Made by a program: the position numbers and the translations under genes
In this document: positions 10,931-54,175 of the stretch, in pieces
Numbering within the stretch: the first letter of the stretch is position 1
How the letters are laid out: the number at the start of each line of letters is the position of its first letter
Source: Geobacter sp. SVR
Lineage (GTDB): Bacteria; Desulfobacterota; Desulfuromonadia; Geobacterales; Pseudopelobacteraceae
Direction: 5' to 3'
DNA length: 64,000 nucleotides
Assembly (NCBI RefSeq): GCF_016865365.1
Contig: NZ_AP024469.1
Coordinates: 2,572,501-2,636,500 of the forward strand
Notes under the pieces: generated by a model
The model's input: the letters and a program-made list of their open reading frames with translations, nothing else
Told to the model about the DNA's origin: nothing
Database searches by the model: none

Positions 10931-11758
10931 GTGAAGGAGATGTGCCGAGTTCTGGGAGTGACTCGGAGTTGGTACTACGCCCATGCGGCCGGCCGAGTAA
11001 CGAATCGGCAGCGCGAAGACCAGGCGTTGTTGCCAACGATCAAATCAGCCTTCGAAGAGAGCGACAAAACATATGGCGCGAAACGGATTACCCATAACCT
11101 ACGGCAGTTAGGGCGGCGCGTCGGTAAAAACCGCATCTGGCGCCTGATGCGAGAAAACGGCCTTAAAGTCAAGACGACGCGGAAGTTCAAGGTTACAACG
11201 AATTCAGATCACAAGCGTCCTGTAGCGGACAATCTGGTGAAGCGTCAATTCTCCGCTGACGCTCCCAATCGGCTCTGGACCGGCGACATAACGTACATTG
11301 AAACGGTCCAGGGCTGGCTGTACTTGGCAGTGGTCCTCGATGTATTCTCCCGCCGGATCGTGGGCTGGAGCATGAACAAACGCATGACGGATGATCTTGT
11401 TATAGCTGCCCTTACCAATGCGATAGTCAGGCGTCGGCCGTCACCAGGATTCATCTTTCACACGGATCGTGGTTCGCAATATTGCAGCAAACGGTTTCGT
11501 GCCGTGGTCGGGAAAGCAGCTGGCATCCAAAGCATGAGCGGAACCGGATGCTGCTATGACAATGCAATTACGGAGACCTTTTTCTCCACATTGAAGAGAG
11601 AACTGATTTACCACTGCTCCTTCACGACCCGGCAAGAAGCACAGAGCCGGATATTTCGTTACATCGAAGGTTTCTACAACCGCAAGAGGATTCACTCTGC
11701 GATTGGCTATCTCACTCCTGAACAGTTTGAGCAGCAGGAGCTAAAGATGGCAGCATAG
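10931..11758 (+). CDS. IS3-family transposase OrfB (DDE integrase domain)
   Basis: 275 residues. It has the HTH_21 region near the N-terminus and an rve/DDE core: the first Asp in TGDITYI, the second in HTDRGSQYCS and the Glu in NAITETFFSTLKRE. It is probably made mainly as an OrfAB fusion by frameshifting. The protein is identical to that of copy 2, so both copies may be active. Confidence 0.93.
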   Translation: MKEMCRVLGVTRSWYYAHAAGRVTNRQREDQALLPTIKSAFEESDKTYGAKRITHNLRQLGRRVGKNRIWRLMRENGLKVKTTRKFKVTTNSDHKRPVADNLVKRQFSADAPNRLWTGDITYIETVQGWLYLAVVLDVFSRRIVGWSMNKRMTDDLVIAALTNAIVRRRPSPGFIFHTDRGSQYCSKRFRAVVGKAAGIQSMSGTGCCYDNAITETFFSTLKRELIYHCSFTTRQEAQSRIFRYIEGFYNRKRIHSAIGYLTPEQFEQQELKMAA

Positions 11759-14610: not shown

Positions 14611-15948
14611 CTATCTTCCGGGAATAATCGCTCCGATCAAATCCTCCACCAACCTCAGTCCTCCCCGATATCCGGTATAGCCGCGATCCAGAACGGCCCG
14701 GTTTGAAACCGGGAAGCTGACTGAGAGCTGCGGCGCACCCAATTCCGCTGCCAGCTCGCGTTCCAGTGAGGTTCCAACGACAAAAGCAGGAGCAAAGACG
14801 TTCCGATAGCTGCCAACAGGCCACTGTTCACGCAGATGGGAAATGACCCGGCTACCGTCGGTCTCGAAAACCAGCTGCACGGGATACTGCGATCGCAGCT
14901 GCGCTATCTGTGCATGCAGATGCTGTCCCTCTTCTTCAGTCCTGAAGGGGTCGGTGCACACCGTCAACTCCGGCAGCCAGCCAAGGTCGTCGGCCAGGAA
15001 CCTGGTCAGGGAGCCGGCGTAGTTGGCATCTCCGACCACCACGGCATAGCGCTGCAGGTCCAGATCGTTGAAACAGTCGGTCAGCGGCTCCAGGTAGCGG
15101 TAGTAGCGCCGGTGCTCCGTGTCGATCACCGCAGAAACTCTCCTGGCACTGACCCTGGCTGCAGCGCCGACGGCACGCAGGAACGGTTCCGTGGCGCCGG
15201 CACCGACCGGCAGCGGTAGACTCAGATACGGCGTAGCGTGCAACTCCTCGAACAGCCGGGCAGCGCCGAGACCATAGGCCTGGGATATGACGATATTCAG
15301 CGAGGCGGACCCTGCCTGACGGATGGTATCGATCGAGTCTTCAGCCAGGAAAAACGAATTGACCTCCAGCCCGAGCGCTTCCAGCAGACGACGCACCTCC
15401 TCGAGGTTGCCGCGCCAGAACGGGTCATAGTACGGGACCACCCCCCAGAGATTGACCCGTTTTCTCCGCTTGGCTACCCCTCGCTCCAGAAAATCCCGAA
15501 ACAGAGCCTGCAGCACCAGGTCATAGCCGTCATAGGAGGTTCCCCGGAATCCGCCGGTCTCTGCGCCGATGATCGGCACCCCCTGAGCGCGAAAATCCCC
15601 CACCACCGCCTGGATGTCGTCGCCGATTACCTCGGTTACGCAACTGGTCAACACAGCATAGATGCTCCCCTCGATGACCTTGAGCGTGTTCTCGATCTGC
15701 TCCCGGAGGCGGCTGTCGCCGCCAAAGACCACGTCGCGCTCACCGATACTCGAGCTCGGTATGGCCAGGGTCCCGCAGTAACCACCCACCTGCAGCGCCG
15801 AGCCACCGTTCTGGGTCCAGGCAAAGTTGCCGGCACAGCCCGACGGGGAATGCAGGATCGGGATGCCGCCCGGCAGGGCGGTAACGGTAGCGGCAGCCCC
15901 CCCCTGGGCACAGGTATAGCGGGGGCGTTCGATGAAATGCTCACTCAT
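14611..15948 (-). CDS. Nitrogenase-like beta subunit (NifK-like)
   Basis: 445 residues from ATG 15948 (GGAGGT seven bases upstream). It belongs to the NifK/oxidoreductase component 1 family: cysteines at 13 (YTCAQGG), 38 (SPSGCAGN) and 103 (LTSCVTEVIGDD) correspond to the three P-cluster ligands of NifK. It is shorter than NifK (about 520), lacking the long N-terminal extension. The ATG overlaps the stop of the NifD-like gene as ATGA, so the two subunits are made together as an alpha2-beta2 enzyme. It would carry electrons via a P-cluster to the alpha-subunit cofactor. The methylthio-alkane reductase type is the best fit given the sulfur genes around it; true nitrogenase is unlikely. Confidence 0.85.
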   Translation of the reverse strand: MSEHFIERPRYTCAQGGAAATVTALPGGIPILHSPSGCAGNFAWTQNGGSALQVGGYCGTLAIPSSSIGERDVVFGGDSRLREQIENTLKVIEGSIYAVLTSCVTEVIGDDIQAVVGDFRAQGVPIIGAETGGFRGTSYDGYDLVLQALFRDFLERGVAKRRKRVNLWGVVPYYDPFWRGNLEEVRRLLEALGLEVNSFFLAEDSIDTIRQAGSASLNIVISQAYGLGAARLFEELHATPYLSLPLPVGAGATEPFLRAVGAAARVSARRVSAVIDTEHRRYYRYLEPLTDCFNDLDLQRYAVVVGDANYAGSLTRFLADDLGWLPELTVCTDPFRTEEEGQHLHAQIAQLRSQYPVQLVFETDGSRVISHLREQWPVGSYRNVFAPAFVVGTSLERELAAELGAPQLSVSFPVSNRAVLDRGYTGYRGGLRLVEDLIGAIIPGR

Positions 15949-17462
15949 GCTTCGGTACCTCCGGAGGCGATGTAGGCAAAGGGATTGGCACCGTACCACT
16001 CGCTGCGATACGGGAGCCGGACGTTTTCAGCCAGGTTCCGGTTGTAGATCGGGTTCTTAAGCTGGCGATACAGCCGGCGAGCCAGCTCGTAGACGCCTTT
16101 GTAGCCGATATAGGCCAGACCGGTGTTGTAGATGACATGGGTGGGTATGCCGAGCTTGGCGGCAGTGCCGTTGCCGTTGGCATGCCCCAGGAACAGGTCC
16201 GGCTTGAGACGCCTGAGCAGGTTGGCCTCCTCGAAGGGCTGCACATTGGCGATATCGACCACGTAATCTTCTTCGGTCGATTGCGCCAACTTCCGATATT
16301 CCACATCGGCGAACTCGTCGTGGTGGAACGAACGGATGCCGACCACCCGGAAGCCGAGCTCCTCCAGCAGCCGGGCGGTCGCCAGTGCGCGGAACTCGCC
16401 GGCACTGATAAAGACCGTTTTTCCCTCAAACAGCGGCCTGAATTCCCTCAGGGCATCCCGAAGCTCCCGCTCTTCCCGGGCGATAATGCCATCCGCCGCC
16501 GTCTCGAAACCGAAGCGGGCCGCCACGTCCCTGAGCCACAGGCCGGTGTTTTCGATGCCGATAGGCATGTGCTGGATCAACGCCGGCACGCCGAAGCGCT
16601 CCTCCAGGTAGGACAGGAAATAGTCGTCGTGCGTCGGGCAGGTGCTGATCGAAAGCGCCGCCTGGGTGGCCTTGACCATGCTCTCGGGATGGCTGAAAAC
16701 CGGAAAGACATTCACATCCAGACCCAGTTCCTTCAGGAGCCGCTCCAGTTCCAGTTCGTCGACCCTCCCCATGGAGGAAACATTCATCAGGTTGACGGTA
16801 CGCGGCAGTCGTTCCAGCCCCTTGAAGGGGGCCAGACCGTTGTCGCCGGCCTCCTGCTCCCCGGGCCGCAGCAGGGTCCGACCGATGCCGTGATAAACGG
16901 CATCATAGGCAGTGGCCCAGATTTTGGTCTTGAAGCCCTCACAATGCACCGGCAGCAGCCGGGCATTGACTTCCGGCTGAAGCCGCTGGATCACCCCGTC
17001 GATGTCATCACCGATGATGCCCGGCACACAACCGGAGACCACGGTGATCGAATAGGGCTTGTAGCGCTGATCCGCTTCGATGATGGCCTGCTCCAGCTTT
17101 TCCTCACCCCCGGTAATGACATCGGTCTCGTTCATGGCGGTGCTCAGCCAGCGGGCATCGGTGGCCTTACCCTGCCGAACGGTGCTGCCGAAACGTACAT
17201 TGGCATTCTGTGAGTGGCTGCAGCTCCCGCAGCCGACGGCGCTGTGCAGCAGCACCACGTTATCCGGCAGGGAGTTGAGCATGGCCAAAGCCGGCAGGAG
17301 CAGACAGATCGAACCCTGGGTAAAGCTGCGCTCGCCGTCGTTCTGCAGGCACGATTTCTTGCCGCTCCTGCCAGCCAGCTCGCAGATGCTTCCGCCGTGG
17401 GCGATGCAGGCCTTGAGCCGGTCCTCGCGCTTGGGGGGTGTCTTCAGATCGATGTGACTCAT
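15945..17462 (-). CDS. Nitrogenase-like alpha subunit (NifD-like), probable C-S bond reductase
   Basis: 505 residues from ATG 17462 (AAAGGAGA four bases upstream). P-cluster cysteines are seen at 53 (GSIC), 78 (SAVGC) and 145 (VSGCVPGIIGDD). Cys275 (STCP) and His442 (PTHVIYNTG, aligned with the MHSWDYSG block of NifD) stand where NifD binds FeMo-co, so an active-site cofactor of the NifB type is probable, unlike CfbD or Bch proteins, which lack both ligands. Transporter, cysteine and sulfur-carrier genes around it point to organosulfur reduction as in methylthio-alkane reductase. No nifB, nifE or nifN lies in the window, so the cofactor must be made elsewhere. Confidence 0.85.
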   Translation of the reverse strand: MSHIDLKTPPKREDRLKACIAHGGSICELAGRSGKKSCLQNDGERSFTQGSICLLLPALAMLNSLPDNVVLLHSAVGCGSCSHSQNANVRFGSTVRQGKATDARWLSTAMNETDVITGGEEKLEQAIIEADQRYKPYSITVVSGCVPGIIGDDIDGVIQRLQPEVNARLLPVHCEGFKTKIWATAYDAVYHGIGRTLLRPGEQEAGDNGLAPFKGLERLPRTVNLMNVSSMGRVDELELERLLKELGLDVNVFPVFSHPESMVKATQAALSISTCPTHDDYFLSYLEERFGVPALIQHMPIGIENTGLWLRDVAARFGFETAADGIIAREERELRDALREFRPLFEGKTVFISAGEFRALATARLLEELGFRVVGIRSFHHDEFADVEYRKLAQSTEEDYVVDIANVQPFEEANLLRRLKPDLFLGHANGNGTAAKLGIPTHVIYNTGLAYIGYKGVYELARRLYRQLKNPIYNRNLAENVRLPYRSEWYGANPFAYIASGGTEA

Positions 17463-17507
17463 GGTTCTCCTTTCGACAGACATCGGAAACAAAAAGGTAA
17501 CAATGGT

Positions 17508-22091: not shown

Positions 22092-22967
22092 TCAGATGCT
22101 CTGGCCGGTGCTGCGGACCTCTCCCGTCTCCACCGCCACTATCTGATCGGACCATCCGGCGGCCCAGCGGCGCAGTTCGTGGACATCCAGCGGCTCGGGC
22201 ACCTTGGACTCGGTGTGGGCTGCAATCCTGGCCGCCAGAGTTTTGTAGACAGCAGCCTGCTCGGAATCCGGGAAGGCCTCGATGGTGGTCTTGCCCTGCA
22301 GCTCGGCCTGGGTGACGGTGATCGAACGGGGCACGTATTCCACTACCTGCGTGTTGGTGCGGGCCACAAAGTCGTCGATGATGTGGCGCGCATAGGGGGC
22401 GTTGATCGAATTGGCGATCACCCCTCCCAGCAGGGCACCGCCGTTGTTGGAGTACTTCTTGATGCCGGTGAACAGGTTGTTGGCCGCGTAGATGGCCATG
22501 AAATCCGAAGAGGATACGGTGAAGACATGCTCGGCAATGCCCTCGCGCACCGGCACGGCAAACCCGCCGCAGACGACGTCGCCGAGCACGTCGTAGATGA
22601 CGAAATCCAGGTCCAGCAGCTCGAAGATCCGCTGCTGCTTGAGCAGCTCCACGGCGGTGATGATGCCGCGTCCCGCGCAGCCGACCCCCGGGGCCGGCCC
22701 TCCGGCTTCGACGCAGTAGACGCCGTTGAAGCCCTGGAAGATCAGATCCTCCGCCTTGGCGTTCTTCTTCTCGCGCAGCGTGTCGAGGATGGTGGGGATA
22801 TATTCGCCGCCGCGCAGCGTCACGGTCGAATCGCTCTTCGGGTCGCAGCCGATCTGCATCACCTTGTAGCCTGCCACCGACAGGGCAGCGCTGATATTGG
22901 ACGTGGTGGTCGATTTGCCGATGCCACCCTTGCCATAGATGGCGATCTGTTTCGGTTTTTTTGCCAT
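22092..22967 (-). CDS. Nitrogenase-like Fe protein (NifH-like reductase)
   Basis: 291 residues. Walker A GKGGIGKST at 12-20, switch I CDPKSD at 41-46, and the two bridging [4Fe-4S] ligands Cys97 (GVGCAGRG) and Cys133 (VLGDVVCGG) are all present. Arg100, the site ADP-ribosylated in NifH, is conserved too. It is the ATP-dependent electron donor to the NifDK-like enzyme encoded downstream. GAGGAA precedes the ATG. It lies between the NifX-like gene and an ABC transporter in one long operon. Confidence 0.9.
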   Translation of the reverse strand: MAKKPKQIAIYGKGGIGKSTTTSNISAALSVAGYKVMQIGCDPKSDSTVTLRGGEYIPTILDTLREKKNAKAEDLIFQGFNGVYCVEAGGPAPGVGCAGRGIITAVELLKQQRIFELLDLDFVIYDVLGDVVCGGFAVPVREGIAEHVFTVSSSDFMAIYAANNLFTGIKKYSNNGGALLGGVIANSINAPYARHIIDDFVARTNTQVVEYVPRSITVTQAELQGKTTIEAFPDSEQAAVYKTLAARIAAHTESKVPEPLDVHELRRWAAGWSDQIVAVETGEVRSTGQSI

Positions 22968-23617: not shown

Positions 23618-24484
23618 TCAAATGCTGTAGTCGAACTCCACGTACTGGTCCATGAGCTTGCTCGGCTGAGGTCCCCCCGGCTTGCCCACCACCCGGGCCG
23701 GAATGCCGGCCACGGTGCAATTCGGCGGCACCTCGTTCAGCACGACGCTGCCGGCGGCGATCTTGGAACCGGCGCCGATTTTGATGTTGCCGAGGATCTT
23801 GGCCCCGGCGCCGATCAGGACCCCCTTGCCGACCTTGGGATGGCGATCCCCCGCCTCTTTCCCGGTGCCGCCGAGCGTTACCTCATGCAGCATGGAGACG
23901 TCGTCCTCCACCACGGCGGTCTCGCCGATAACCACGCTGGTTCCGTGATCGATCAGGATACCCGTGCCGATCCGGGCCGCCGGATGGATATCCACGTCAA
24001 AGGCCTCGGAGATCCTGCTTTGCAGGTGGAGCGCCAGGGCATGACGCTCCTGCCGCCAGAGCCAGTGGGCCGCGCGATAGGACTGCAGCGCCTGGAATCC
24101 CTTGAAGTTGAGATACGGCAGGGCCAGGCTTTTTGCGGCCGGGTCCCGCTCCACGACCGCCGACAGATCGCGGCGCAGGGCCCTGCGGATCTCCTCGGAG
24201 GAGGTCATTGCTTCGTAGAGCACATCCCGCAGAGACGTGGTCGTCAGATAGGAAGAGGACAACTTGCCGGCCAGCAGATACGACAAGGATGCTTCAAGGG
24301 AGCCGTGCTTGAGAACGGAATCGTGCAGATATCCCGCCAGCATCGGTTCGGATTTGGCCGTTATGAAGACATCCTGGCGCAGCCGTGTCCAGATCTGATC
24401 GGACGTGTCCGGCTTTCCGTCGTGCCGATTCCGTTCCCGATTGATCCGGCTCAATGTCATAGTTTCGGAATAAGTCGGCATCAT
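23618..24484 (-). CDS. cysE: Serine O-acetyltransferase (EpsC/CysE type)
   Basis: 288 residues. The C-terminal half is a left-handed beta-helix made of hexapeptide repeats (VDIHPAARIGTGILIDHGTSVVIGE ... GAKILGNIKIGAGSKIAAGSVV), preceded by the helical SAT domain. It makes O-acetylserine from serine and acetyl-CoA for cysteine synthase. The C-terminus ends FDYSI; a terminal Ile is what enters the active site of cysteine synthase in the known SAT-CysK complex. Its position after the encapsulin and desulfurase genes is the classical family 2 encapsulin arrangement. GGAGG precedes ATGATG at 24484. Confidence 0.92.
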   Translation of the reverse strand: MMPTYSETMTLSRINRERNRHDGKPDTSDQIWTRLRQDVFITAKSEPMLAGYLHDSVLKHGSLEASLSYLLAGKLSSSYLTTTSLRDVLYEAMTSSEEIRRALRRDLSAVVERDPAAKSLALPYLNFKGFQALQSYRAAHWLWRQERHALALHLQSRISEAFDVDIHPAARIGTGILIDHGTSVVIGETAVVEDDVSMLHEVTLGGTGKEAGDRHPKVGKGVLIGAGAKILGNIKIGAGSKIAAGSVVLNEVPPNCTVAGIPARVVGKPGGPQPSKLMDQYVEFDYSI

Positions 24485-24497
24485 GGGCCTCCTCGTG

Positions 24498-26243
24498 TTA
24501 CCGGATCTGCCTCAGGGCGTACACCAGGCGATCGATCTCTTCGAAGGTGTTGTAAAAGGAGTACGACGGCCGCACGGTCGCCTCCAGACCGAAGCGGCGT
24601 AGCGACGGCTGGGCGCAGTGGTGCCCGGCACGTACGGCAATGCCGTGCTGGTCGAGGTACCGGCCGACCTCCGGCACGGAGCGGTCCTTCAGGACAAAGG
24701 AGGTAACCGCCACCTTGTCGCGGGCATTTCCTACCAGGGTCAGGCTGTTAACGTATTTCAACTGCTCGGTCGCGTATTCCAGCAGCCGGTGCTCGTGGGC
24801 GGCAATAGGGCCGAGGCCGATCCGGGTAACGTAATCGAGCGCCAGCCCCAGTCCGTAGGCATCGGCCACGTTGGGGGTGCCGGCCTCGAACCTGGCCGGA
24901 ACATCGCTGTACACGGTCTCCTCGAAGGTGACATCCTTGATCATGTTGCCTCCCCCTTGCCAGGGAGGAAGCGCTTCCAGCAGTTCCCTGCGGCCATAAA
25001 CCGCACCGATGCCGGTGGGGCCGAAGATCTTGTGGCCGGAGAAGACGAAGAAATCAACCCCCAGGGCCTGTACGTCCACCGGCAGATGGGCCACCGATTG
25101 GGCGCCGTCGATCAGCACATGCGAACCGTTGCGCTTGGCAAGATGGGTCATCTCGGCGATGGGAAGCACGGTGCCGAGGCTGTTGTTGGCCTGGGCCAGG
25201 CCCACGATCCTGGTGCGCGGCCCCAACAGGCGCTGGTATTCATCCAGCCTGATTTCGCCGTTATCGTTGATCGGGATGACCCTGATGACCGCCCCCCGTT
25301 CTTTGGCCACGATCTGCCAGGGGACGATGTTGGCGTGATGTTCCAGTTCCGACAGCAGGATTTCGTCCCCCTGCTGGAGAAAGCGCTGGCCGTAGGCATG
25401 TGCCACCAGGTTGATCCCCTCGGTGGTGCCGCGCACAAAGACGATCTCTTCGCTGGAACCGGCCTTCAGGTAATCGCGCACCGTGTCCCTGGCCCCCTCG
25501 AAGGCATCGGTGGCCCGGGCCGCCAGGCTATGGGCGCCGCGGTGGATGTTGGAGTTGTCCTCTTCGTAGAAACGTTTCAGCCCGTCGATGACCTGACGCG
25601 GCTTCTGGGTGGTGGCGGCATTGTCGAACCAGACCAGCGGCTTGCCGTGCACCTGCTGGTGCAGGATCGGGAAATCCTGGCGGATGGCAGCCACGTTGAA
25701 AGCCGGGGAACCGGTCAGCTTGCCCTGCTTCGGCAGGCTCGCCTCCAGCAGACGGCTGAACGGGTCGGCATAGTGCCCCTGTCGGTCGGTGCTGCCGCGC
25801 AGGTCGTGACGGCATGACTGGATATTGGCCACAAACCCCTTCAGGCTGCCGTGTTGGGAGACATTGTCCGTATAGGTCTGCTGCCGCACCAGGTTGTCGG
25901 CGTGCCGTCCCAGCGGGACCGCAGTCGGTCCGCCCGTTGCGGGCACCTCGAACGCTGCGGGGATGGGGGCGCCCGACCGGTTGCTGCCGGCCCTGATGGC
26001 CTCGAACGCCTGGGCGACCAGGGCCAGTCCGGCATCACCGGACGCCAACGAATCAAGGCTGCCGACGTTACCGGGGAGCGTGACCGACGTGGCCGCGGTT
26101 TCCTGTTGGGCCCGCTCGATCAGTTCCCGGGCAATGCCGAGCGAATCAACTCCAGGTACTGATGACGCCGGTAACCCCGCGGCAGTCTGGTTATAGAGCC
26201 TGGTGGCCACCTGGGCCACCAGCTCGGGAGTGATATCTGACAT
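24498..26243 (-). CDS. Cysteine desulfurase (SufS type) with encapsulin-targeting N-terminal extension
   Basis: 581 residues from ATG 26243 (AAAGGA upstream). The catalytic part, from about residue 182, is a group II cysteine desulfurase: PLP lysine 405 (SGHKIFG) and active Cys543 (GHHCAQP). The preceding ~180 residues are rich in Ala, Gly, Pro and Ser and look disordered, as in the cargo-loading domains of desulfurases enclosed by family 2 encapsulins. The shell gene is immediately upstream. It removes sulfur from cysteine as persulfide; inside the shell the sulfur may be stored, as reported for family 2A systems. Confidence 0.9.
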   Translation of the reverse strand: MSDITPELVAQVATRLYNQTAAGLPASSVPGVDSLGIARELIERAQQETAATSVTLPGNVGSLDSLASGDAGLALVAQAFEAIRAGSNRSGAPIPAAFEVPATGGPTAVPLGRHADNLVRQQTYTDNVSQHGSLKGFVANIQSCRHDLRGSTDRQGHYADPFSRLLEASLPKQGKLTGSPAFNVAAIRQDFPILHQQVHGKPLVWFDNAATTQKPRQVIDGLKRFYEEDNSNIHRGAHSLAARATDAFEGARDTVRDYLKAGSSEEIVFVRGTTEGINLVAHAYGQRFLQQGDEILLSELEHHANIVPWQIVAKERGAVIRVIPINDNGEIRLDEYQRLLGPRTRIVGLAQANNSLGTVLPIAEMTHLAKRNGSHVLIDGAQSVAHLPVDVQALGVDFFVFSGHKIFGPTGIGAVYGRRELLEALPPWQGGGNMIKDVTFEETVYSDVPARFEAGTPNVADAYGLGLALDYVTRIGLGPIAAHEHRLLEYATEQLKYVNSLTLVGNARDKVAVTSFVLKDRSVPEVGRYLDQHGIAVRAGHHCAQPSLRRFGLEATVRPSYSFYNTFEEIDRLVYALRQIR

Positions 26244-26364
26244 GGCGTTTGTCCTTTGAGAGGTTAGAGGCAAATCCCCCTGAATCCCCTTTAGGCCCTT
26301 TGGGTCCTTTGCTAAAGGGGGACTTTAAAACTCCCCCCTTTGAAAAAGGGGGGCTGGGGGGGAT

Positions 26365-27822
26365 TTAAATCCCCGCCCCGGAGTTATAGGCCACCGGTAT
26401 GCTATGCTCGTAATGGTGGTAATAGCCGACCTCCACATTCTCAAGCACGCCAATGGCGTCGTCGGTGAGTACCGCGGCCGAGAAATAGAGCGACAGCAGG
26501 TACGAAGCGACCCCCAGGTTGTCCAGCCCCATCAGGCGCGCCGACAGGCTCGGCGAAATCTCGCCCGGAATGCCCTGCTGGTGAAGCCCGACCACCCCCT
26601 GGTCTTCTTCGCCGACCCGCAGCAGCAGGATGTTGGTGGTGCCGAGCCACTGGTTGAAGGAATAGCGGCTCTTGACCTCCAGCTTGTCGGTCGGGACCAG
26701 CGGCACGCCGCGCCACAGGATGACCGGCGACCCGAACAGGTTGGTGGTGACGGGCGGCACGCCGCGCCAGGTGCACTCCCGCTCAAAGGCGGCAATGGCC
26801 TTGGGATGGGCCAGGAAGAAGGAGGGTTTCTTCCAGACCAGGGCCAGGAGTTCGTCCAGGTCATCGGGGGTTGGTGCACCGTAGCGGGCGCTGATGCGGT
26901 GCTTGGGGTGCACCGAGTGGAGCAGGCCGAACGCCTTGTTGTTGATCAGCTCCCACTCCTGGCGCTCCTTGATCCCCTCGATGGTGAGACGGAGCTGTTC
27001 TTCCAGCTGATTGTAGGGATTGTTGTACAGGTCGGACACCCTGGTATGCACGCGTACCACCGTCTGCACGGCGGACAGGGAATATTCGCGGGGGTTTTCC
27101 GAGTAATCCACAAAGGTCTCGGGAATGATCACATTCTCCGCCAGGCCCGAAACCAGGTCGATATTGCGCTCGCCGTACTTGTTGACGGTTGCCAGCAGTT
27201 CCAGGTGTTCATCTACCGCCTTGGTGAACTCGCTCTTCAAGGCCGCATTGCTGTCGAGAACAGTCTGCAGGTCGGTGCGGGACAGGGTCAGCAGCACACA
27301 GGGATTGATGGTGCGGATGGTGACATCCGACGGCTTTTCCGAGGCCAGGTCGGCCTCCCCGAAATACTCCCCCTCGGTCAACAAGGCAATGCGCAGATCG
27401 CTGCCGTGGACCCCCTTGCTGAGCACTTCCACCTGCCCTTGGGCAATGATGAAAAACTTGTTGCGATCCTTTCCTTCGACAACGAGCGTATTGCCGAGGG
27501 TAACCCTCTCCGTCTTGAAACTGGTGGCGATCTTTTCCAGAATGCCGTCGGAGAGCTTGGCAAAAAGCGGTACGCTGCGCAGCGCCTGGGGCTCGAAGGA
27601 AGCCGCGCCATTGACAAGGGTGAACTCGACCCGCTCCGCGTTCGGCAGCTCGACGCGGGTCCGGTTGACGCGGTAGGTGCCCCCTTCCACATGCACCCAG
27701 GGAAGCAGGTTGAGCAGGTGGCGCGGCGTGATGGAGGCAAGCTGCGGCGGCGTCTTGGTGGTGTTCGCGAGGTTGCGGGCCACGGATGTGGTAACACTGC
27801 GCTGCACAAGGCTGTCTGACAT
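26365..27822 (-). CDS. Family 2 encapsulin shell protein with cNMP-binding-like domain
   Basis: 485 residues. The N-arm ([15 protein letters not shown]) and the [16 protein letters not shown] block match SrpI-type encapsulins, an HK97-fold protein cage. A cyclic-nucleotide-binding-like domain is inserted at about residues 83-205 (GEYFGEADL block), which defines family 2B. The Arg that normally holds the cyclic phosphate is not seen after that block (SEKPSDVTI), so nucleotide binding is doubtful. The next gene encodes a desulfurase with a long disordered extension, its expected cargo. AAAGGAG precedes the ATG. It is not evidence for a prophage despite the capsid fold. Confidence 0.9.
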
Positions 27823-28771: not shown

Positions 28772-29722
28772 CTACTCCGGCTGTTCAGACAGTTGCGTCG
28801 TAATGTAACGCTCTCCCGAATCCGGCAGGATCACGACCACCAGTTTACCGGCATACTCCTGCCGGCCGGCCACCTGCAGGGCCGCCCAGACCGCGGCACC
28901 GGACGAGATGCCGCACAGGATTCCCTCCTCCAGCGCCACGCGCCGGGCAGTATTGAAGGCCGCCTCGTTGGTGACCTGAACGACTTCGTCGATGATCTTC
29001 CGGTTCAGGATACCGGGGATGAAGCCGGCTCCGATCCCCTGGATGCGGTGCGGCCCTGGCCTGCCGCCGGACAGGACCGGCGAGGCTTCGGGCTCTACCG
29101 CCACCGAGCGGAACGAAGGCTTGCGGCTTTTCAGCACCTCGGAGACCCCGGTGATGGTACCGCCGGTGCCTACGCCTGCCACCAGGATGTCGGCCTGACC
29201 GGCCGTATCGGCCCAGATTTCCTCGGCGGTCGTTTCCCGGTGCACCTGCGGATTGGCCGGATTCTCGAACTGGAGCGGAATGAAGCTGCCGGGGATCACC
29301 CGCGCCAGTTCTTTGGCCTTGTTGACCGAACCGGTCATACCGTCCGGCCCCGGCGTCAGCACCAGTTCGGCACCCAGCATCTGCATCAGCTTGCGGCGCT
29401 CGATCGACATGGTCTCCGGCATGGTTATCACCAGACGGTAGCCCTTGGCCCGACAGGCAAAGGCCAGACCGATGCCGGTATTGCCGGAGGTCGGCTCGAT
29501 CACCGTCATGCCCGGCTTGAGCTTCCCTTCCCGTTCGGCCGCCTCGATCATGGCTGCACCGATACGGCACTTGACGCTGTTGAGCGGATTGAAGGACTCC
29601 ACCTTGGCGACAATGCTTGCCGGCAGCCCCGCGGAGAGGGTGCGCAGGCGCACCAGAGGGGTACGGCCGATGGCGCCGATGATGTCGTCGTAGATGGTAT
29701 TGCGGAAGGAGGTATGTGACAT
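28772..29722 (-). CDS. cysK: Cysteine synthase A (O-acetylserine sulfhydrylase)
   Basis: 316 residues. The PLP lysine lies in [11 protein letters not shown] and the substrate loop in [12 protein letters not shown]; the GTGGTITG phosphate-binding loop is present. It makes cysteine from O-acetylserine and sulfide. A second copy of the same family is encoded at 52569-53522 (about half identical by eye), suggesting separate roles or different partners. It follows the ABC transporter operon and lies just before the encapsulin promoter. Confidence 0.93.
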
Positions 29723-29883: not shown

Positions 29884-30756
29884 TTAAATCACGTAATCCG
29901 CTTCGTGCAGGATGTCGTACTTGTACATCGCCAAAAGCCGCTCCTTGAGCGCCACCAGTTCCGGCGCCGCCCGCCGCCGGGGGCGGGGAACATCCACCGT
30001 GATCCGGTTGCGGATGCTGCCCGGCAGCGGGGAAAACACCACAATCTCGTCCGAAAGGTATACCGCCTCGTCCACGTCGTGGGTGACGAGCACGATGGTT
30101 TTGCCGGTCTCCTGCCAGAGCCGCAGCAGATCCTCCTGCAGACGTTCGCGGGTCAGGGCGTCCACGGCCGCGAACGGCTCGTCCATCAGGATGATGCGCG
30201 GCTCCACCGACAGGGCCCTGGCAAGGGCCAGACGCTGGCGCATGCCGCCGGAGAGCTGCGAGGGGTATTTGTTTTCGGAGCCGGTCAGTCCCACCAGCCG
30301 CAGGTAATGGCCGGCAGCTCCCTCCCGTTCGCTTTTAGGCACGCCGCGCAGCTTGAGGGTGAAAAGCACGTTCTGACGGGCGGTCATCCAGGGGAAAACG
30401 GCATAATCCTGGAATATCATGGCAATGTCGTGCTTGGGATTGTCCCGGAACAGGCTGTTGGCAATGGGGGAAAGAAAGCGGTATTTCCTGCGGTACTCCT
30501 CCATGTCCCTGCGGGTAGCGGGCAGAGGCTCCAGCACCAGTTTGTCGTCGATCCACACCTGGCCGTCGCTGGGGGCCTGGAGACCGGCCAGGATCTCCAG
30601 GAAGGTGGACTTGCCGCAGCCGGACGGGCCGAGCAGCGACACGAAGGAGCCGCTCTCGATGCTCAGTGAAACGGAGTTGAGCGCCGTGAACCCCTCGGCA
30701 GTGCGGTCGTCGTTGATCACCGAAAAGAATTTGCTGATGCGCCTCGCCTCGATCAT
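29884..30756 (-). CDS. ABC transporter ATPase (SsuB/TauB family), second system
   Basis: 290 residues with Walker A GPSGCGKST, signature LSGGMRQR, Walker B IILMDEPFAAVD and THDVDEA. Residues 70-100 form an insertion (ATRRDMEEYRRKYRFLSPIANS) between Walker A and the Q loop (IFQDYAVFPWM) that is absent from the other two ATPases. It is encoded immediately after its permease. Confidence 0.9.
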   Translation of the reverse strand: MIEARRISKFFSVINDDRTAEGFTALNSVSLSIESGSFVSLLGPSGCGKSTFLEILAGLQAPSDGQVWIDDKLVLEPLPATRRDMEEYRRKYRFLSPIANSLFRDNPKHDIAMIFQDYAVFPWMTARQNVLFTLKLRGVPKSEREGAAGHYLRLVGLTGSENKYPSQLSGGMRQRLALARALSVEPRIILMDEPFAAVDALTRERLQEDLLRLWQETGKTIVLVTHDVDEAVYLSDEIVVFSPLPGSIRNRITVDVPRPRRRAAPELVALKERLLAMYKYDILHEADYVI

Positions 30757-46364: not shown

Positions 46365-47192
46365 GTGAAGGAGATGTGCCGAGTTCTGGGAGTGACTCGG
46401 AGTTGGTACTACGCCCATGCGGCCGGCCGAGTAACGAATCGGCAGCGCGAAGACCAGGCGTTGTTGCCAACGATCAAATCAGCCTTCGAAGAGAGCGACA
46501 AAACATATGGCGCGAAACGGATTACCCATAACCTACGGCAGTTAGGGCGGCGCGTCGGTAAAAACCGCATCTGGCGCCTGATGCGAGAAAACGGCCTTAA
46601 AGTCAAGACGACGCGGAAGTTCAAGGTTACAACGAATTCAGATCACAAGCGTCCTGTAGCGGACAATCTGGTGAAGCGTCAATTCTCCGCTGACGCTCCC
46701 AATCGGCTCTGGACCGGCGACATAACGTACATTGAAACGGTCCAGGGCTGGCTGTACTTGGCAGTGGTCCTCGATGTATTCTCCCGCCGGATCGTGGGCT
46801 GGAGCATGAACAAACGCATGACGGATGATCTTGTTATAGCTGCCCTTACCAATGCGATAGTCAGGCGTCGGCCGTCACCAGGATTCATCTTTCACACGGA
46901 TCGTGGTTCGCAATATTGCAGCAAACGGTTTCGTGCCGTGGTCGGGAAAGCAGCTGGCATCCAAAGCATGAGCGGAACCGGATGCTGCTATGACAATGCA
47001 ATTACGGAGACCTTTTTCTCCACATTGAAGAGAGAACTGATTTACCACTGCTCCTTCACGACCCGGCAAGAAGCACAGAGCCGGATATTTCGTTACATCG
47101 AAGGTTTCTACAACCGCAAGAGGATTCACTCTGCGATTGGCTATCTCACTCCTGAACAGTTTGAGCAGCAGGAGCTAAAGATGGCAGCATAG
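46365..47192 (+). CDS. IS3-family transposase OrfB (copy 2)
   Basis: 275 residues, identical to OrfB of copy 1, with the DDE residues in TGDITYI, HTDRGSQYC and NAITETFF all intact. Confidence 0.93.
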   Translation: MKEMCRVLGVTRSWYYAHAAGRVTNRQREDQALLPTIKSAFEESDKTYGAKRITHNLRQLGRRVGKNRIWRLMRENGLKVKTTRKFKVTTNSDHKRPVADNLVKRQFSADAPNRLWTGDITYIETVQGWLYLAVVLDVFSRRIVGWSMNKRMTDDLVIAALTNAIVRRRPSPGFIFHTDRGSQYCSKRFRAVVGKAAGIQSMSGTGCCYDNAITETFFSTLKRELIYHCSFTTRQEAQSRIFRYIEGFYNRKRIHSAIGYLTPEQFEQQELKMAA

Positions 47193-52387: not shown

Positions 52388-52567
52388 TTAAATGCCGCTG
52401 CCGTCGATGTGCCCATTCCGATTCAAGCGGATCTTCTCGTTTTTATCCACCTGGATTACCCGTCCATCCTGAACCACCAGCGTAACGGTGCCGAAGCGGA
52501 TCGAGCCGAGCGCCCGGCGTACAAGCCGTTCCAGTTCCGAGTTCCAAAGATCTGCTGGAGTTGACAT
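52388..52567 (-). CDS. DUF2292 (YezD-like) small protein
   Basis: 59 residues from ATG 52567, one base after the stop of cysK. The sequence (LERLVRRALGSIRFGTVTLVVQDGRVIQVDKNEKIRL) is typical of the YezD family, found in sulfur-assimilation operons of many bacteria, function unknown to me. The 52179-52387 stretch after it holds only a short GC hairpin, with no clear promoter for the next gene. Confidence 0.82.
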   Translation of the reverse strand: MSTPADLWNSELERLVRRALGSIRFGTVTLVVQDGRVIQVDKNEKIRLNRNGHIDGSGI

Positions 52568-52568
52568 G

Positions 52569-53522
52569 TCAGAACCCCTCGAACAGCGGGGTCGAAAGAT
52601 AGCGCTCGGCGCCGTCCGGAAGCACCACGACGATAGTCTTTCCTTCGAATTCGTCCTGTTTTGCCAGTCTGACTGCAGCAGCGACCGCAGCCCCGCTGGA
52701 GATCCCGGCCAGCAGCCCTTCCTCCTGTGCCAGACGCCGGGCAAACTCGATCGCCTCTTCACTGCTCACCTGTTCGACCCGGTCAACCACCGCCAGATCG
52801 AGCGTATCCGGGATGAAACCTGCCCCTATCCCCTGTATCTTGTGCGGTGCCGGCCTGAGTTCCTGACCGGCCAGCTTCTGGGTGATGACCGGGCTTTCCT
52901 TCGGCTCCACGGCAACCGACAGGATCTTCTTGCCCTTGGTGTTCTTGATGAAACGGGAAACCCCGCTGATTGTCCCGCCGGTGCCGACGCCCGAAACAAG
53001 CACATCGATTGCCCCTGCCGAATCTTCCCAGATTTCCGGTCCGGTGGTTTCCTGGTGTATTTCAGGATTTGCCTGGTTTTTGAACTGCTGGGGGATGAAG
53101 TATTTTTCCGGCTCTGCGGCGGCGATATCCTCGGCCCGCTTGATAGCCCCTTTCATCCCCTCTGCCCCCGGCGTCAGTATCAGGGTGGCACCAAGCGCTG
53201 CAAGCACACGGCGTCGTTCGATGCTCATGGTTTCCGGCATGGTCAGGGTCAGCTTGTAGCCACGGGCGGCGGCGACATATGCCAAGGCGATACCGGTGTT
53301 GCCGCTGGTCGGCTCGATGATTTCCACCCCCGGTTTCAGGACGCCACGCTTCTCGGCATCCCAGATCATATTGGCGCCGATGCGGCACTTGACTGAATAT
53401 GACGGGTTGCGGGCCTCGACCTTTGCCAGAATGGTGGCCTTTGCCCCGTCGGCAATATGATTGAGGCGGACCAGGGGTGTTCTGCCGATCGACTGTGAAT
53501 TGTCCTGATAAACGGTGCTCAT
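52569..53522 (-). CDS. cysK: Cysteine synthase A, second copy
   Basis: 317 residues with the PLP lysine in [11 protein letters not shown], the [12 protein letters not shown] substrate loop and GTGGTISG. It makes cysteine from O-acetylserine and sulfide. Its gene lies directly after the Rrf2 regulator gene, the pair known from the CymR-CysK control system of Bacillus, so this copy may double as the sensor partner of that regulator. Confidence 0.93.
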
Positions 53523-53570: not shown

Positions 53571-54032
53571 TCAGATACTGTAATCGATAGTATTTGCACG
53601 GTGTAATTGTGCGGCTTGACTGCGCCTGATCATGTCGGACAGGGTTGTTTTATCCATCACGGATGAGATGGCGCTCTTGACATCCAGCATGACAAACTTT
53701 ATCCCGCAGCTTTCCAGGTCACAGCACTCGTCCAGGTATCCGGGGCCGTTCTTCCCCAGGCACTGGACCGGAGAGAAATCACCCTCCAGGACCCTGACCA
53801 CCATGCCGATGGTGATTTCCCCCGGAGAGAACGCCAACTGGTACCCTCCCCCCTTGCCTATCCTGCTTTTCAGAATGTTTCCTTTGCGCAGGGCAAGCAG
53901 GATCGTTTCGAGAAACTTCTTCGGGATGTTTTCCGCAGTGGCCAGATCCGAAATGAGAACAGGTCCTCGACCGTGACATTTCGCCAGATATGTCAGTGCC
54001 TTCAACGCATATTCGGTCTTCCGCGAGATCAT
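53571..54032 (-). CDS. Rrf2-family (CymR/IscR-like) regulator ending in a SAT-like tail
   Basis: 153 residues from ATG 54032 (GGAG seven bases upstream; ATG 54038 is also possible). The N-terminus MISRKTEYALKALTYLA and the winged helix are typical of Rrf2 proteins. Four cysteines at 91, 103, 104 and 109 could bind an Fe-S cluster as in IscR. The last residues, TIDYSI, repeat the DYSI tail of the serine acetyltransferase in this locus, the segment by which that enzyme binds cysteine synthase. It is likely the master regulator of the locus, controlled through CysK. Leader element 9 precedes it. Confidence 0.85.
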   Translation of the reverse strand: MISRKTEYALKALTYLAKCHGRGPVLISDLATAENIPKKFLETILLALRKGNILKSRIGKGGGYQLAFSPGEITIGMVVRVLEGDFSPVQCLGKNGPGYLDECCDLESCGIKFVMLDVKSAISSVMDKTTLSDMIRRSQAAQLHRANTIDYSI

Positions 54033-54069
54033 GCGCATGCTCCATAGTGAAAAATTGCGGTTTGAAAAT

Positions 54070-54122
54070 AAAAAAAGGCCAAAGGATATCGATCCTTTGG
54101 CCTCCGGTAGCTCCGGTCAGCC
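54070..54122 (-). promoter_or_regulatory. Leader/attenuator element 9 (Rrf2 unit)
   Basis: Minus strand: GGCTGACCGGAGCTACCGG, then AGGCCAAAGGATCG ... ATCCTTTGGCCT and a run of T about 35 bases before the Rrf2 start. The small stem is CCGG/CCGG. Confidence 0.8.
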
Positions 54123-54142
54123 GGCAGTGCCAGGCAGACTTA

Positions 54143-54175
54143 CTGATAAAGTCTATATAGTTTGTATTTAATACC
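54143..54175 (-). promoter_or_regulatory. AT box and probable promoter of the Rrf2 unit
   Basis: Minus strand: TATTAAATACAAACTATATA followed by GACTTTATC, closely like the box of the encapsulin operon (TAAATACAAA shared). A clear -35/-10 pair is not evident. Confidence 0.5.

Follow-up and report, generated by a model that had tools for sequence, protein, structure and literature searches.

An Rrf2-family regulator encoded next to cysK in Geobacter sp. SVR ends in a conserved peptide of the serine acetyltransferase type and probably reads cysteine supply through CysK

The window, by which is meant the whole 64,000-nucleotide stretch of Geobacter sp. SVR DNA that was analysed, carries on its minus strand a presumed operon in which the gene of an Rrf2-family regulator (rrf2) is followed by cysK and by a gene encoding a DUF2292 protein, the last gene of the set (Table 1). 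The regulator terminates in RANTIDYSI, the last four residues being encoded by GAT TAC AGT ATC, followed by TGA. Approximately 29 kb away, also on the minus strand, lies the gene of a serine acetyltransferase (SAT) whose C-terminus reads VEFDYSI, with the codons GAC TAC AGC ATT and then TGA. The common DYSI end of these two proteins (IDYSI and FDYSI), to which an earlier note on this DNA had drawn attention, can be read directly from the window sequence, and the view taken there that the match does not stem from recent DNA copying is borne out; the codons differ and the protein families are unrelated, so that neither gene can have been copied recently from the other. The window holds two occurrences of the degenerate string GAYTAYAGYAT, at the ends of these two genes and nowhere else, against an expectation of 0.05; no shuffle out of 100 gave two matches. 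Only three frames of at least 80 residues in the window end in an aromatic residue, any residue and isoleucine ([YFW]xI, hereafter aromatic-x-Ile), namely the SAT, the Rrf2 regulator and an ABC-transporter ATPase. Four Rrf2 genes are present in the genome, a single contig of 4.72 Mb, among them a second copy of the regulator (C1:1821644-1822102) that ends in VVDFSI and has directly behind it a cysK 85% identical to that of the window.

Table 1. Features of the rrf2-cysK locus and of related sulfur genes in the window.
Feature	Position in window	Strand	Basis or remark
Rrf2-family regulator, 155 aa	53571..54038	-	PF02082, 116.3 bits vs curated cut-off 30; stop codon 53571-53573
C-terminal DYSI tail of regulator, putative anchor	53574..53585	-	terminal Ile and Tyr/Phe at -3 in 50/50 readable orthologues
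cysK, cysteine synthase A, next gene of operon, presumed partner	52569..53522	-	TIGR01139, 467 bits vs cut-off 351
DUF2292 (OscA-like) protein, 59 aa from inner ATG, ends HIDGSGI	52388..52567	-	PF10055, 61.5 bits vs cut-off 22
Likely promoter of rrf2 operon: TTGACA, 17 bases, TATTAA	54168..54196	-	by eye
Structured leader between promoter and rrf2, strong terminator hairpin at its end	54069..54155	-	fold z-score
Serine acetyltransferase ending FDYSI (tail 23621-23632)	23618..24484	-	TIGR01172, 228 bits vs cut-off 211
ABC-transporter ATPase ending HEADYVI (tail 29887-29898)	29884..30756	-	directly upstream of second cysK
Second CysK of window	28772..29722	-	TIGR01139, 447 bits vs cut-off 351

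Orthologues of the regulator were collected from 57 related genomes, which gave 52 rows at E <= 1e-39, of which 51, lying in 40 genomes, were read (G055:C155:154338 was left out). Two shorter rows were also left out, one cut by a contig end (G018) and one a fragment (G044:C282), and dropping L033, which has an internal stop, leaves 50 readable orthologues. The survey of orthologous C-termini that the earlier note had proposed as a check found the terminal isoleucine in all 50, in every case within a [YF]xI end, the commonest tails being DFSI (17 of 50) and DYSI (14 of 50); the isoleucine codon is ATC in 29, ATT in 12 and ATA in 9. Nearly all orthologues can be aligned to their last residues, and in an alignment of the 48 non-identical full rows (L024, whose start is missing, being left out) the isoleucine is invariant, the -3 position is phenylalanine in 27 and tyrosine in 21, and the -4 position is aspartate in 41. 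Since the isoleucine never varies while all three of its codons are used, the tail is under selection as a peptide rather than carried along as inherited DNA, and its conservation across orthologues shows that the ending shared with SAT is not due to chance. The eight columns preceding the last six residues rank with the most poorly conserved positions of the protein in this alignment, in which one other stretch is as variable.

The predicted fold of the regulator (AlphaFold, 58 sequences) has a mean pLDDT of 89.9, with the tail modelled as a coil after the last helix (residues 133-149) and a pLDDT of 64 in the last block, so that on sequence and model together the regulator is predicted to present what characterises a SAT-type partner, a free C-terminal isoleucine on a flexible tail. 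The closest solved structure to this fold is that of CymR (2y75, E 1.3e-10). CymR of Bacillus, Staphylococcus and Listeria resembles the regulator in its Rrf2 fold, in its connection with cysteine metabolism and in a C-terminal aromatic-x-Ile (MFYI in the Listeria and S. aureus chains); it differs in that the regulator has conserved loop cysteines where the aligned CymR chains have none, adjoins cysK and the DUF2292 gene, and has a D[YF]SI-like tail. Against the CymR equivalog model NF047409 the regulator scores 75.1 bits, and nine relatives and wider homologues score 66.6 to 96.0 bits, all below the cut-off of 195, and orthology with CymR was therefore rejected. A four-cysteine pattern is present in 48 of the 50 readable orthologues, the exceptions being the window copy, in which one of the four lies at a different place, and L047; both have four cysteines in other spacing. 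These residues suggest a second input through an Fe-S cluster or thiols. The Fe-S Rrf2 regulators IscR, NsrR and RirA likewise have conserved cysteines in the loop that follows the winged helix; the regulator is nevertheless separable from them, as it scores 61 bits against an IscR cut-off of 208, and as none of the eight NsrR/RirA-like paralogues (assigned by eye) of the same genomes has an isoleucine tail. The regulator belongs to a distinct four-cysteine subfamily, whose proposed mechanism is known in kind from CymR.

Peptides of this type are reported to dock on CysK. The C-terminal isoleucine of CysE is reported to contribute 80% of the interaction energy with H. influenzae CysK; the best CysK-binding peptides described in the same source (MNYDI, YGYDI, and MNWNI) have an aromatic residue at the third-last place; and DFSI is given there as the native CysK-binding CysE tail of another bacterium, with a crystal structure on CysK, other native CysE tails being YGDGI (Salmonella) and MNLNI (PMC9547175). 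By sequence, the regulator tails DFSI, DYSI, and MYDI match this binder type in having an aromatic residue at -3. CymR and CysK are reported to form a regulatory repressor complex in which CysK is the sensor, via O-acetylserine (OAS) (PMC2940859), and OAS is likewise named as the signal for the CymR-CysK repressor complex in PMC2869319. A 2026 article names CymR among proteins with a C-terminal isoleucine motif, and reports that the tail of the CdiA toxin (GYGI) and that of EGL-9 reach CysK or its homologue (PMC12895370). CdiA and EGL-9 offer a parallel as non-SAT proteins that use the motif for CysK (PMC12895370); they differ in being a toxin and a hydroxylase, whereas here the carrier is a regulator and perhaps also a transporter ATPase and a DUF2292 protein. 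The SAT-CysK cysteine synthase complex is a parallel as well, with the same kind of terminal peptide, but the carrier in the present case is a DNA-binding protein and not the enzyme that makes OAS.

The reading we favour, with a probability of roughly 0.72, is that the regulator is a CymR-like Rrf2 sulfur regulator that reads cysteine supply through CysK, as the retention of the tail in close relatives would lead one to expect. By analogy it most likely works as CymR does, by the same docking. The flexible aromatic-x-Ile tail with its free carboxylate would plug the active site of the neighbouring CysK in the manner of the SAT tail. With ample cysteine and sulfide, OAS would be low, the complex would hold and rrf2-cysK-DUF2292 would be repressed; when sulfide is short, OAS would accumulate, take the active site and expel the tail, and repression would be lifted. 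CymR and SAT are the models from which docking, release by OAS and the direction of the effect are taken here. In the literature collection searched, no paper joined Rrf2, cysK, Geobacter and a regulon.

Many Geobacterales have, about 20 bases behind a TTGAC box, an inverted repeat, TATCTATAG..TAGATA, that reaches the rrf2 start codon. The repeat TCTATAGNNNNANTAGAYA has 18 exact matches in 12 of 39 genomes, against none for the reversed control; nine lie 18 bases before the rrf2 frame and behind a TTGAC box, five at contig ends with the same flanking sequence, one directly before cysK (G023), two in the gap behind rrf2 (G019 and G020), and one elsewhere (G040). The position of the repeat over the rrf2 promoter fits an autorepressor. 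The window itself contains no match to it with up to two mismatches allowed, whereas a presumed operator precedes the second copy at C1:1821623-1821641. Between promoter and rrf2 the window has a structured leader, with a fold z-score of -4.06 for 54041-54160, which could be a small RNA; it gives a sub-threshold Rfam match to Qrr (E 0.0061, 30.3 of 50 bits), and a known riboswitch was rejected, with no Rfam match at gathering score in the leader (only tRNA elsewhere). A similar leader element precedes the second copy in G001 and occurs once elsewhere, in G049.

The earlier note had interpreted the tail as mimicry of SAT, and this interpretation survives in part. A regulator whose gene immediately precedes cysK, and whose closest solved fold is CymR, does carry a conserved, flexible SAT-type peptide, but imitation of this particular SAT is rejected as the origin, as the tail is more widely spread than the tailed SAT. 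Eight of the 57 genomes yielded the long, tailed SAT, and all eight read, including that of the window, end in D[YF][SC]I. In 23 of the 57 a shorter SAT could be read, and none of these 23 ends in [YFW]xI (that of L086 ends in GRI). Of the 40 genomes with the regulator, five have the long SAT and 35 were found without it, and in 18 of these 35 a short, untailed SAT was read. As far as these searches reach, most of these species have the tail on the regulator and not on SAT, which suggests a possible role for the peptide pocket of CysK where SAT is untailed. Since other Rrf2 clades and CymR carry the tail too, regulator and SAT are better viewed as sharing a CysK anchor. The cysK-centred survey of the phylum described below also met 24 SAT-like genes next to cysK, of which only five end in GxGI (L249, L250, L268, L270, and L309) and one more ends in isoleucine.

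Tailed Rrf2 proteins are encoded beside cysK outside this subfamily as well. Within it, cysK lies downstream of the regulator in 36 of 51 orthologue loci, the other 15 including the unreadable L033; some of those without cysK precede sulfate-transport genes (L097, L100, and L105). In a survey centred on cysK, 110 cysK places, drawn from the best-scoring listed among 247 genomes of the phylum and not at random (30 automatic best matches and 80 chosen in list order, with some skipped), were scanned with an Rrf2 model lacking the tail, so that the survey did not start from the tail. A same-strand Rrf2 gene lies just upstream of cysK, with a gap of -4 to 306 bases, in 22 of the 110, two Rrf2 genes downstream of cysK being excluded. 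Nineteen of these 22 end in aromatic-x-Ile (untailed: L299, L313, and L315); five belong to the Geobacter-type subfamily, without which 14 of 17 are tailed. G037 and G040 each carry a member of a second Rrf2 subfamily, with an FVYYI-like end, whose gene shares 4 bases with another cysK; the Geobacter sp. SVR member of that subfamily (L196:3677-4138; C1:3705176-3705637) has lost the aromatic-x-Ile and ends in ERELTAG. In the pooled Rrf2 set 58 of 61 cysK-adjacent genes are tailed, against 65 of 116 that are not adjacent (Fisher p 1.3e-8; four more were unplaceable), an association that gains no further support when relatedness is taken into account, the tail hardly ever differing within seven independent pairs. 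This independent-pairs test has no power, because tailed proteins are spread over so much of the tree, which was built from 181 rows and 135 columns and contains many unresolved forks and 13 tail changes. Several separate Rrf2 clades beside cysK are tailed on this tree.

The tail is not special to the subfamily, since 12 of 22 control paralogues from the same genomes also end in aromatic-x-Ile; eight of the 22, the NsrR/RirA-like proteins, form one clade and are all untailed. In another survey of the phylum 21 of 26 Rrf2 proteins are tailed. From a scan of bacterial genomes the best 80 named homologues of a larger number were taken, of which 79 were readable (L122, which runs off its contig, was dropped); among these 79, 40 end in [YFW]xI, 36 lack the isoleucine and three have the isoleucine without the aromatic residue. 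By record title the tailed homologues belong to Geobacterales, Alphaproteobacteria (some ending in MYDI), Acidobacteriota, Omnitrophota, Fibrobacterota, Myxococcota, and others; the motif is absent from all Bacteroidota and Rhizobium rows of the best 80. Ten loci outside Geobacterales, mostly tailed, viewed gene by gene, revealed no sulfur genes by eye, and cys-gene queries matched only some of the others. In L220 and L231 a tailed Rrf2 gene (ending YHI) lies directly before an IscS/NifS-like gene and not cysK. The earlier note had held that orthologues lacking the isoleucine while keeping the same regulon would speak against docking. No such case was found among the readable members of the subfamily, but outside it 3 of the 61 cysK-adjacent Rrf2 proteins are untailed, and a sulfur link without the tail does exist, as the untailed rhizobial L145 and L151 lie beside cysHDN.

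This breadth is what lends weight to the view that aromatic-x-Ile is a general element of Rrf2 proteins, serving as a latch on the dimer or cluster site or as a dock for some other protein, and is unrelated to CysK. The frequencies just given for the best-80 homologues, the phylum survey and the control paralogues would all be expected on that account, as would the many tailed Rrf2 genes seen without sulfur neighbours and the two beside an IscS-like gene. We nevertheless hold it to be unlikely. A variable linker parts the tail from the fold and the tail is predicted to be a loose coil; the tail equals or resembles known CysK-binding peptides, and cysK is a recurrent neighbour; an unrelated ATPase has the same ending only where cysK follows; and CymR, itself tailed, is reported to bind CysK (PMC2940859; PMC12895370).

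It is also conceivable that the regulator acts mainly on the enzyme, as a CysK inhibitor that replaces a missing SAT tail, with gene control being secondary. The 18 regulator genomes with an untailed short SAT and no long SAT found accord with this, since the regulatory site of CysK would otherwise seem unused there. A repressor is, however, usually far scarcer than a biosynthetic enzyme, and the conserved repeat covering the regulator's promoter points to transcription as the output, so that this account appears decidedly improbable. Least credible of all is that the tail arose by chance or acts as a generic C-terminal signal, for example a degradation tag. As background, 838 stop-to-stop frames of at least 200 residues in the fetched loci, shadow frames included, were considered; a terminal isoleucine alone is not rare among them (78 of 838), while 21 end in [YFW]xI, of which 15 are Rrf2 or SAT genes (sorted by hand) and six are others. 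Against both stands an ending found in 50 of 50 readable orthologues, written with all three isoleucine codons and with tyrosine or phenylalanine at -3 throughout; this conservation already contradicts coincidence.

Comparable endings are found on other proteins encoded beside cysK. The ATPase family, represented by 11 members including that of the window, is tailed in all six cases with cysK downstream and in none of the five without; the tailed members carry nine extra residues, ending in DYVI, DYSI, or DWSI, and the five untailed members stop before these. The members fall into two similarity groups, so that the tail may represent a single gain and the Fisher value of 0.002 does not come from independent cases. 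In the literature collection searched, no paper joined C-terminal isoleucine, cysteine synthase and ABC transporter. The DUF2292 protein scores 30.9 of 85 bits against the OscA model, below its cut-off. A GxGI end is present in all 13 readable DUF2292 proteins encoded directly behind cysK (2-26 bases, window included), and in two of nine not behind an intact cysK, L016, with no cysK near, and L102, where only the last 25 CysK residues precede it; the other seven lack GxGI, one of them (L029) ending in a plain isoleucine, and L053 was dropped as its frame was not readable. The L102 locus, in which a tailed rrf2 stands before the CysK remnant, reflects either a deleted cysK or a misassembly. The GxGI end of these proteins recurs on the five SAT-like genes named above and in the YGDGI of Salmonella CysE. 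In L237 and L254 the gene directly behind cysK encodes a MetX-like acetyltransferase (by eye), with the ends DVYEI and MEYAI; these are possibly further tailed CysK partners.

SAT-type tails occur on at least four unrelated sulfur-operon proteins, the SAT, the Rrf2 regulator, the sulfur-type ABC-transporter ATPase, and the DUF2292/OscA-like protein, and one OAS-read active site could therefore switch transcription, uptake, and synthesis together. That CysK is the hub of such a C-terminal "Ile code" is a tentative proposal from the endings themselves, to which we give slightly less than even odds. Multi-partner reading by CysK would be the new part, the regulator alone being a variation on the known CymR principle. 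With the regulator, that principle would reach beyond Firmicutes into Desulfobacterota and, judging by the tail sequences, into several further phyla, with a four-residue peptide as its concrete chemical basis. If the tails of the ATPase and of DUF2292 bind as well, CysK, a metabolic enzyme, would gate a transporter directly through the kind of peptide used for gene control, and the DUF2292 family, tied to sulfur starvation by model name, would gain a mechanism.

On the minus strand at 21-34 kb of the window lies a sulfur-type cluster with the SAT, a DsrE2-like gene (79 of 210 bits), CysK, an ABC transporter, and rhodanese-like genes. A shell-like protein (26365-27822, minus strand) and a cysteine desulfurase that is extended by a long stretch at its N-terminus (24498-26273, minus strand) resemble, by eye, a sulfur-type encapsulin and its cargo. 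Nitrogenase-like D/K and H proteins (by eye; 14611-17492 and 22092-22967, minus strand), which may form a methylthio-alkane reductase, are encoded among sulfonate-type transporter genes. Two transposase-like frames, identical by eye (46365-47192 and 10931-11758, plus strand), flank the cluster at 14-34 kb.
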